DNA of 64,000 nt. It comes from Parahoeflea halophila. Its GTDB lineage: Bacteria; Pseudomonadota; Alphaproteobacteria; Rhizobiales; Rhizobiaceae. Shown here piece after piece: positions 13,563-16,040 of this stretch. The stretch spans positions 310,001-374,000 of the forward strand of contig NZ_OCPC01000004.1 of assembly GCF_900220985.1 (NCBI RefSeq), read 5' to 3'. Both the position numbers and the translations under genes were made by a program. Numbering within the stretch: the first letter of the stretch is position 1; each line of letters begins with the position of its first letter. The notes beneath the pieces were generated by a model. That model did not search any database, had not been told where the DNA came from, and was given only the letters and a program-made list of their open reading frames with translations.

Positions 13563-14747
13563 CTAGAGACCTGAGAGCGCGTGATCGAGATCCTCGATGA
13601 GATCGTCGGCGTCTTCGATCCCCATCGAAAGACGCAACACGCCGGGCCCGATGCCGAGTTCGGCACGGGCTTCTTCGGCAAGATTCTTGTGCGTGGTGGT
13701 GGCCGGATGTGTGATCAGGCTTTTGGTATCTCCAAGATTGTTTGAGAGCTTGATCACCTCGAGCTTGTTCTGCATCGCGAACGCTGCCGGTTTGCCGCCC
13801 TTGAGTTCCAGAGCGACCAGTGTCGAGCCGCCCTTCATTTGCCGGGCACAGATCTCCGCCTGCGGATGGTCGGCGCGGCCGGGATAGATTACCCGCGTAA
13901 TCGCCGGGTGGTCTGCGAGGAAGTCAGCTACCTTGGTCGCGTTTTCGGTCTGCTGGCGCACCCTCAGCGGCAGAGTTTCCAGACCCTTGAGCAGCGTCCA
14001 TGCATTGAAGGGCGACAGTGACGGGCCGGTGTGCCGGAAATAGTCGTGCAGGTTCTCGTCGATCCAGTCCTTGTCCGACAGGATTACCCCGCCCAGGCAG
14101 CGGCCCTGACCGTCAATATGCTTGGTCGCCGAATAGGCCACAATATGGGCGCCAAGTTCGAACGGCTTCTGCATCAACGGCGTGGCAAACACGTTGTCGA
14201 CCACAAGCTTGGCGCCGATCTGATTGGCGAGCTTGGCAACCCCGGCGATATCGACCACCTCAAGTGTCGGGTTGGTCGGGCTTTCGAGGAAAAACACTTT
14301 GGTATTAGGCCGGATAGCGGCCTCGAAATTGGTCAGGTCGCGGCCGTCGACGAGAGTTGATTCAACGCCGTAGCGGGGCAACAGCGTTTCGACGACCCAG
14401 CGGCAGGAGCCGAACAGTGCGCGGGCGGAAACAACGTGGTCGCCCGCCTTGAGCTGGCACAGCAGCGCTGCCGAGATCGCCGCCATGCCCGAGGCGGTGG
14501 CGCGCGCATCTTCCGCACCTTCCATCGCGCACATGCGCTTTTCGAACATGTCGTTGGTCGGATTGGCATAGCGCGAATAGATGAAACCCGGATCTTCGCC
14601 CTTGAACCTCGCTTCCGCGGCTTCGGCGCTGTCATAGACGAAGCCCTGGGTCAGAAAGATCGCTTCGGAGGTCTCGCCAAATCCTGAACGGCTGGTGCCG
14701 CCATGCACGAGCTGGGTCGCGGGGCGGAGGTGTCGGGTGCTTGTCAT
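13563..14747 (-). CDS. metZ: O-succinylhomoserine sulfhydrylase
   Basis: This 394-residue Cys/Met-metabolism PLP enzyme has the sulfhydrylase-type start (HLRPATQLVHGG), the FIYSRYANPT motif and the Schiff-base lysine K209 in AYSATKHIDGQGR. It makes homocysteine directly from O-succinylhomoserine and sulfide in methionine synthesis. Upstream lies a SAM-II riboswitch followed by a terminator, consistent with end-product control by S-adenosylmethionine. The start at 14747 is preferred by homology; a GTG at 14762 is in frame but lies almost against the terminator T-run. Cystathionine-type activity cannot be excluded, but the sequence start and riboswitch favour metZ. Confidence 0.93.
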   Translation of the reverse strand: MTSTRHLRPATQLVHGGTSRSGFGETSEAIFLTQGFVYDSAEAAEARFKGEDPGFIYSRYANPTNDMFEKRMCAMEGAEDARATASGMAAISAALLCQLKAGDHVVSARALFGSCRWVVETLLPRYGVESTLVDGRDLTNFEAAIRPNTKVFFLESPTNPTLEVVDIAGVAKLANQIGAKLVVDNVFATPLMQKPFELGAHIVAYSATKHIDGQGRCLGGVILSDKDWIDENLHDYFRHTGPSLSPFNAWTLLKGLETLPLRVRQQTENATKVADFLADHPAITRVIYPGRADHPQAEICARQMKGGSTLVALELKGGKPAAFAMQNKLEVIKLSNNLGDTKSLITHPATTTHKNLAEEARAELGIGPGVLRLSMGIEDADDLIEDLDHALSGL

Positions 14748-14764
14748 GATCCTGGTCCACACAC

Positions 14765-14796
14765 AAAAATACCGGCTTGCGAAGTCGCCAGCCGGT
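14765..14796 (-). terminator. Intrinsic terminator in the metZ leader
   Basis: On the minus strand ACCGGCT and AGCCGGT form a stem extended by GCG/CGC after one mismatch. It has a 4-nt loop and is followed by ATTTTTG. It lies between the SAM-II aptamer and the metZ start codon, so it acts as an attenuator. Its 3' arm (14771-14780) is an exact complement of the aptamer core at 14837-14846. Confidence 0.8.
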
Positions 14797-14803
14797 TTTG
14801 CAA

Positions 14804-14864
14804 CCCGACCATTTTAGCGACTTGTTTAACGTGGCTGCAAGCCGGTCGGCCAAATCACCACGGG
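14804..14864 (-). promoter_or_regulatory. SAM-II riboswitch
   Basis: The minus strand carries the characteristic conserved core of the SAM-II (metA-motif) aptamer. P1 pairs CGTGG (14862-14858) with CCACG (14834-14830). The GTGATTTG segment, the TTAAACAAGTCGCTAAA stretch, and the pseudoknot pairing CGACC (14848-14844) with GGTCG (14810-14806) are all present. SAM-II is known from alphaproteobacteria upstream of methionine genes, including metA and metZ homologues. It is expected to bind S-adenosylmethionine and lower metZ expression. Here a terminator follows, pointing to transcriptional control. Confidence 0.95.
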
Positions 14865-14951
14865 ATAACCGCGCTTTTAAGCGGTTCCGCCGCTTGCGTC
14901 AATCGCTTCGCCTTGTCATCAAGGCATCAGGCAATTTGGAGCATTGAGATC

Positions 14952-16040
14952 TTGGCAGAGGGTATTCTCTCCGACAGCGCGATTCAGGCGCTCTTTGATG
15001 CGGCAAGGCTTGTCTCCGGCCGGCCTCTTGATGCCGATCAGATCCAGCCTGCGAGCCTTGACCTGAGGCTGGGCGCAAGGGCTTACCGGGTGCGCGCCAG
15101 TTTCCTGCCCGGCCCAACAGCCACGGTTGAAGACAAGCTCAAGCGGCTGAGCATGCATGAGATCGATCTTTCGGCCGGCGCCGTGCTGGAGACCGGTTGC
15201 GTCTACATCGTCCCCTTGCTCGAAAGCCTCGATCTGCCGTCGGAGATCTCCGCTTCGGCAAACCCGAAAAGCTCGACCGGGCGGCTGGACATCTTTACCC
15301 GCGTCATGACTGATCACGGCCAGGAATTCGACAAGATCGCGCCGGGTTATACCGGGCCGCTCTGGCTCGAGGTCAGCCCGCGAACGTTTCCGATCGTGGC
15401 GCGCACCGGTTCACGCCTGTCGCAGATCCGCTTTCGCAAGGGCCATGCCGTGCTGGGCGAGGATGAGCTGTCGGCGCTTCACACCGCCGAAATGCTGGTT
15501 GCGTCCGAAACTCCGAATGTCTCGGGCGGCGGCATTGCGCTGTCGATCGACCTGATGGGGCAGGGCGATGATGGGCTGATCGGTTATCGCGGCAAACATC
15601 ACACCGCAGTTGTCGACGTCGACAAGCGCGCGGCCCAAGAGGTGTTCGATTTTTGGGAGCCGCTGTACAATCGCGGATCCGCCGATCTGATCCTCGATCC
15701 CGACGAGTTCTATATTCTGGTAAGCCGGGAGTCGGTGCATGTGCCGCCACTATATGCCGCGGAGATGACCCCGTTCGATCCGCTGGTCGGTGAGTTCCGG
15801 GTGCATTATGCCGGTTTCTTCGATCCCGGCTTCGGTCACAGCGAAGCGGGCGGTGCTGGAAGCCGGGCTGTACTCGAAGTACGCAGCCACGAGGTTCCCT
15901 TTATTCTCGAACACGGTCAGATCGTCGGGCGCCTGATTTACGAGAAGATGCTGGAGCGCCCCGCTGCCCTTTATGGATCGGGTCTGGGCTCGAACTATCA
16001 GGCCCAGGGCCTGAAACTGTCCAAGCATTTTCGAGCCTGA
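14952..16040 (+). CDS. dcd: 2'-deoxycytidine 5'-triphosphate deaminase (long form)
   Basis: This protein of about 362 residues matches the long two-domain dCTP deaminase found in alphaproteobacteria. The first half shows ILSDSAIQAL, PASLDLRLG and the active-site segment ANPKSSTGRLD. The second half shows a dUTPase-like repeat with FRVHYAGFFDPGFGH and EVPFILEHGQ. It deaminates dCTP to dUTP for dTMP synthesis. No ATG fits the family start; the TTG at 14952 is preceded by GGAG 10 nt upstream and gives LAEGILSDSAI. It diverges from metZ, and its leader is separated from the riboswitch by less than 90 bp. Confidence 0.88.
   Translation: MAEGILSDSAIQALFDAARLVSGRPLDADQIQPASLDLRLGARAYRVRASFLPGPTATVEDKLKRLSMHEIDLSAGAVLETGCVYIVPLLESLDLPSEISASANPKSSTGRLDIFTRVMTDHGQEFDKIAPGYTGPLWLEVSPRTFPIVARTGSRLSQIRFRKGHAVLGEDELSALHTAEMLVASETPNVSGGGIALSIDLMGQGDDGLIGYRGKHHTAVVDVDKRAAQEVFDFWEPLYNRGSADLILDPDEFYILVSRESVHVPPLYAAEMTPFDPLVGEFRVHYAGFFDPGFGHSEAGGAGSRAVLEVRSHEVPFILEHGQIVGRLIYEKMLERPAALYGSGLGSNYQAQGLKLSKHFRA

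Follow-up and report, generated by a model that had tools for sequence, protein, structure and literature searches.

The metZ leader

The window, i.e. the whole analysed stretch of 64,000 nt, carries a SAM-II riboswitch that adjoins a methionine/SAM biosynthesis gene, metZ, located downstream of the aptamer. Positions 14871-14793 of the minus strand match covariance model RF00521 (SAM_alpha) with 83.5 bits (E 2.3e-17; gathering score 36), and the match spans model positions 1-79 of 79. All six P1 pairs and all 12 P2 pairs of the aptamer are standard, the P2 register having been assigned by us from the sequence. Elements of the locus are listed in Table 1.

Table 1. Elements of the metZ leader and their positions in the window
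Feature	Position	Strand	Basis
SAM-II (SAM_alpha) riboswitch aptamer	14793..14871	-	RF00521
P1 5' strand (partner 14835-14830)	14857..14862	-	RF00521 structure; all pairs standard
P1 3' strand	14830..14835	-	RF00521 structure; pairing check
P2 5' strand region (core, S5; includes the core of the earlier note, 14846-14837)	14837..14849	-	12/12 P2 pairs standard
P2a 3' strand (CAAGUC)	14819..14824	-	fold, pairing check
Outer half of proposed antiterminator, AAGUCGCU	14823-14816	-	fold, pairing check
P2b 3' strand (GGUCGG), inner half of proposed antiterminator	14805..14810	-	fold, pairing; coevolves with terminator 5' arm
Intrinsic terminator hairpin	14771..14796	-	folding, -17.4 to -17.7 kcal/mol
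Terminator 5' arm and loop, proposed antiterminator partner of P2 3' strand	14782..14795	-	14 bp
Terminator 3' arm, 10 nt, exact complement of 14846-14837	14771..14780	-	sequence
Terminator U tract	14765..14769	-	sequence, folding
metZ, O-succinylhomoserine sulfhydrylase (start 14747)	13563..14747	-	NF005696, 765 bits; TIGR01325, 554 bits
-35 element TTGACG (GATTGACGCAAGC context)	14897..14902	-	TTGAC conserved in metZ leaders
Putative -10 element TTAAAA, 16-nt spacer	14875..14880	-	inferred from upstream sequences

An intrinsic terminator is situated between the aptamer and the start of metZ, which lies 58 nt past the P2 3' end. The hairpin stem has 7 bp followed, after a G.A mismatch, by 3 more, with ACUU as the loop and AUUUUU as the tail. 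It was revealed by folding; a simple consensus terminator scan missed it and listed two other minus-strand sites.

Among the best 80 of 572 matches, the nearest named relatives of MetZ come from Hoeflea (H. alexandrii, 93% identity). The host genome belongs to the Hoeflea group, and SAM-II is present in all 18 genomes of the genus searched, the host included. Two copies are found in the host genome. The second (locus L002) precedes a MetA-family gene, recognized with 448 bits, which is under the model cut-off of 460.5, in a tested frame that starts upstream of the gene. The L002 leader possesses a terminator too (-14.8 kcal/mol). In Sinorhizobium meliloti, control of metA is described as acting on translation, and a terminator occurs there as well (PMC9373788). 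On the opposite strand, the divergent gene at 14952-16037 codes for 2'-deoxycytidine 5'-triphosphate deaminase (NF005734, 621 bits). An opposite-strand frame, 14703-16040 (+), spans the entire riboswitch and enters this gene; it is probably just a long open frame.

For comparison, 246 loci were collected, 191 of them metZ; 184 metZ leaders were parsed and 180 used, of which 136 are distinct and represent 88 clades at 95% MetZ identity (90% gives 53). Seven of the 246 loci, all metZ, were dropped for failing a strict aptamer pattern, and the parsed set lost three leaders without a terminator and one with an incomplete aptamer. The loci were partly sampled from the larger family and order and are mostly higher-scoring matches (one metZ set is the best 80 of 572), and the aptamer profile was trained on oriented sequences. 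Loci L001-L030 and L058-L063 supply the Hoeflea set of 17 distinct leaders; Hoeflea sp. SAT27 (L066) was counted with the others. With a threshold of -8 kcal/mol or better, terminators were found in 181 of the 184 parsed metZ leaders versus 32/184 when the downstream sequence was shuffled (one shuffle each). Leaders not assigned to metZ contain a terminator in 42 of 55 cases and none in 13.

Predicted pairing of the P2 3' strand with the terminator

In the host leader, the P2 3' strand is predicted to have the terminator as an alternative partner. Its two halves, 14823-14816 and 14810-14805, pair with 14795-14782 (5' arm and loop) through 14 standard pairs, including 3 G-U. Calculated without the pseudoknot and without SAM, the energy of this helix is -18.5 kcal/mol, compared with -17.7 for the terminator, -16.8 for the helix formed by the core and the 3' arm (core:3' arm) and -7.1 for P1. 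In the minimum-energy fold it sits nested inside the core:3' arm helix, and the two alternative helices are compatible, amounting together to -35.5 kcal/mol.

Folds of the growing transcript place these events in order. At 56-80 nt, another fold of the aptamer is preferred and P1 has a probability of 0.30 at most. The helix of P2 3' strand and 5' arm is formed at 89-92 nt, ahead of the 3' arm, and the full core:3' arm helix requires 101 nt. In snapshots preceding the 3' arm, at least five antiterminator pairs are predicted in 83 of 88 clades; the five clades with few or none include one Hoeflea (L011). Of the six possible pairs between the P2b 3' hexamer and the 5' arm, all six are formed in 55 clades, five in 28 and four in 5 (88 clades in total).

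When both P2 strands are blocked, a proxy for the SAM-bound aptamer, the terminator reaches a probability of 0.97. The same value results in the host leader from blocking the P2 3' strand alone and from blocking the core alone (0.32 when free). Since the core block has this effect, pairing of the P2 3' strand is by itself insufficient at equilibrium in the host leader. For full-length, ligand-free leaders of the 88 clades, the median terminator probability is 0.83; it is below 0.5 in 20 clades, a number that drops to 16 on blocking the core and to 3 on blocking the P2 3' strand. The ligand-free equilibrium thus favours the terminator, and antitermination would therefore have to be kinetic. Judged by sequence, energy and coevolution, the predicted antiterminator would be mutually exclusive with both the aptamer and the terminator; in most clades the terminator is predicted to dominate at equilibrium.

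Coevolution was estimated by a swap test, in which native duplex energy is compared with that of partners exchanged between clades (5000 permutations; the tree above clade level is ignored). The pairing of P2 3' strand with 5' arm gave z -8.3 across 88 clades, with 0/5000 permutations. This signal is as strong as that of P2 itself (-6.7); the terminator gave -15.5, and two control pairings that are not expected to form gave -0.5 and +1.1. With 53 clades, the corresponding values are -4.4 for the P2 3' strand and 5' arm, -4.3 for P2, -12.2 for the terminator and -1.2 and -1.1 for the controls. The signal persists among clades with constant core sequence (z -6.8 in 43 clades, -2.8 in 37) and among those with constant 3' arm motif (-7.3 in 46, -3.1 in 12), and is therefore not carried over from P2 or the terminator. 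It also appears outside metZ, with z -3.8 for 38 distinct leaders (from 42 with terminators) that were not reduced to clades.

One antiterminator pair illustrates the process: it is G-C in 47 clades, G-U in 20, A-U in 20 and A-C in 1. Mapped on the MetZ tree, its P2 side has undergone 12 changes and its arm side 17. Both sides change on five branches, in each case in a compensatory manner, which is matched by 22 of 10000 random placements; for 7 of the 12 P2-side changes, a partner change is found on neither the same nor an adjacent branch. The identity of the SAM-II antiterminator strand is readable from coevolution across 88 clades.

Proposed mechanism and its alternatives

An earlier note on this locus held that the terminator 3' arm (14780-14771) is the exact complement of the core (14846-14837) over 10 nt, and that without SAM the resulting helix can act as antiterminator. 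The complementarity itself is correct. The 10-mer occurs at only two sites of the window when both strands are considered, 14771-14780 and 14837-14846, on opposite strands; two or more occurrences arose in 6 of 100 window shuffles. When the 40 nt behind the aptamer were dinucleotide-shuffled, a complement of at least 10 nt to any part of the aptamer appeared in 23 of 5000 trials, which makes chance an unlikely origin. The match is largely explained by near-identity of the core and the terminator 5' arm, as 14796-14787 differs from the core by a single base. These two segments are alike because each is a pairing partner of the P2 3' strand; the 3' arm pairs with the 5' arm and therefore nearly complements the core too, so that the 10-nt complement is largely a by-product. 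The search for the unbroken Watson-Crick run of 10 nt compared the folded 3' arm with the core segment of 13 nt. Of the distinct leaders, 8 of the 17 from Hoeflea contain the run; the other 119, each of which has a terminator, all lack it.

We consider it very improbable that the core:3' arm helix acts as the sole antiterminator. Several observations speak for it: the complement exceeds chance, the helix is part of the minimum-energy fold, blocking the core strongly promotes the terminator in the host leader, and over 88 clades its mean duplex is about as strong as the other helix (-14.8 vs -14.9 kcal/mol). If G-U pairs are allowed, 84 of the 119 non-Hoeflea leaders have a run of at least 8, but only 3 reach 10. 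However, the helix requires the 3' arm, at which point the local terminator can already form; taken alone it is weaker than the terminator, and the nested fold loses P1. When the P2 3' strand is unavailable, moreover, the terminator falls below 0.5 in only 3/88 clades. Swap values for core:3' arm are z -2.6 in 88 clades (23/5000), -1.0 in 53 clades (877/5000) and +1.9 in the non-metZ leaders, and the test has little power here, as the core hardly varies (three forms only among 88 clades), so that coevolution would hardly be visible; with the core held constant, the S5:T3 permutation has no variance and carries no information. Its rejection as sole antiterminator rests mainly on the order of synthesis, on energy and on how poorly the unbroken run is conserved. 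The helix of P2 3' strand and 5' arm is the better-supported antiterminator.

Similarly improbable is purely translational control by occlusion of the Shine-Dalgarno sequence, with the hairpin being merely a constitutive terminator. Such control has a precedent in the best-studied SAM-II member, whose Shine-Dalgarno sequence is embedded in P2 (PMC10907184). In the present leader, however, the terminator separates P2 from the metZ start, and the P2 3' strand coevolves with the terminator 5' arm.

We thus favour, with a probability of roughly 0.8, a SAM-II transcriptional OFF switch for metZ in which the P2 3' strand paired with the terminator 5' arm serves as antiterminator. From the computed anatomy, pairings, conservation, coevolution and energies, we infer SAM binding, the order of events in the cell and actual termination as follows. 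At low SAM, the P2 3' strand would capture the 5' arm and loop during transcription, before the 3' arm is synthesized; the terminator would then be blocked and metZ transcribed. With SAM bound, P2 would stay closed and both of its strands occupied, leaving the 5' arm free by the time the 3' arm appears; transcription would then end at the terminator. An OFF switch in which aptamer and terminator compete for strands is what the earlier note had proposed, and that part stands; the core:3' arm helix as sole antiterminator probably does not, being formed later than the P2 3' strand helix, coevolving weakly or not at all (at low power), being weaker than the terminator and costing P1. The result offers a direct mutational test and corrects which helix should be mutated first.

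In Hoeflea, the open P2 would allow the core to catch the 3' arm as well, and the core:3' arm helix may thereby add a second lock. A stronger version, in which Hoeflea needs both helices, so that P2 and the terminator are exchanged for core:3' arm and P2 3' strand:5' arm among four strands, is a tentative possibility. The nested and compatible combined fold agrees with it, and so do the effect of blocking either partner strand in the host leader and the full complement kept in about half of the Hoeflea leaders. On the other side, 13 of the 17 Hoeflea leaders have a free-state terminator probability above 0.5 and only 4 have one below it, the full run is missing in 9/17, and P1 must open. Expressed more generally, and with equally limited confidence, the Hoeflea platform might copy the aptamer pseudoknot. 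The two P2 strands would have their complements in the two terminator arms, and in the ligand-free state strands would therefore be exchanged to give two helices that tie up the entire terminator, a state to be reached kinetically; the wider family would use one helix. Sharing of a pseudoknot strand with the antiterminator is familiar from transcriptional H-type pseudoknot riboswitches such as preQ1-I, which differ in ligand and aptamer.

By its predicted anatomy, the host locus is an ordinary SAM-II transcriptional switch of an already known type. As early as 2005, putative terminators were noted in many SAM-II representatives, placed after P2 and ahead of the gene, which suggested an OFF switch (PMC1273637). 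In 2007, transcription was predicted to be the level at which SAM-II elements most commonly act in alpha- and beta-Proteobacteria (PMC2258182). For this group, the latter contradicts the opinion, voiced in the earlier note, that a transcriptional SAM-II switch is unusual. The Agrobacterium tumefaciens metA element has the P1 and P2 pseudoknot aptamer in common with ours; the word "antiterminator" is absent from the main text describing it (PMC1273637). Gene and riboswitch class are shared with the SAM-II element that belongs to the O-succinylhomoserine sulfhydrylase gene in Gluconobacter oxydans, where coverage of the 5' UTR was reported in 2018 to be 20-fold higher than that of the ORF; these RNA-seq data suggest termination, and a terminator/antiterminator prediction is cited in the same work (PMC5756330).

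The closest counterpart is S. meliloti metZ, which shares the aptamer class, the gene and a terminator predicted on SAM binding (PMC9373788). In this organism, SAM was reported in 2022 to raise the RZ sRNA, whose size of ~100 nt fits termination, and to lower metZ mRNA (PMC9373788). Because promoter activity and RNA stability also shift with SAM (PMC9373788), RNA levels alone are no proof of termination there. The regulon is covered in PMC4239095 and metZ mRNA half-lives in PMC12218461. Structural work on SAM-II is described as centred on a translational member (PMC9373788), and SAM-II is treated as a translational example in PMC10907184. The alternative fold of S. meliloti metZ is drawn in Figure S1 of PMC9373788; in the paper listings and the passages of the papers cited here, the P2 3' strand is nowhere identified as the SAM-II antiterminator.

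Promoter region

Upstream of the aptamer, a TTGAC box is found within 40 nt in all 18 Hoeflea metZ leaders and in 117 of 118 other metZ leaders, the latter being those of 167 with at least 70 nt of upstream sequence. A consensus promoter scan of the window did not list the -35 element TTGACG of the host.

A palindrome-like sequence, CTTGATNNCAAG (14912-14923, minus strand), precedes the TTGAC box by exactly 9 nt. At this spacing it recurs in the Hoeflea metZ promoters with one exception (17 of 18). It is absent from the 12 Hoeflea leaders not assigned to metZ and from all 118 further metZ promoters whose available upstream sequence covers at least 70 nt. The pattern has 21 genome matches versus 2 for the reversed pattern, one palindromic site being counted on both strands. 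It is a possible site for a regulator. Another arrangement, GACAAAACCA upstream of TTGACGCAAG, was spotted by eye among nine printed promoters and is shared by five metZ promoters of other Rhizobiaceae (L065, L069, L074, L099 and L116).
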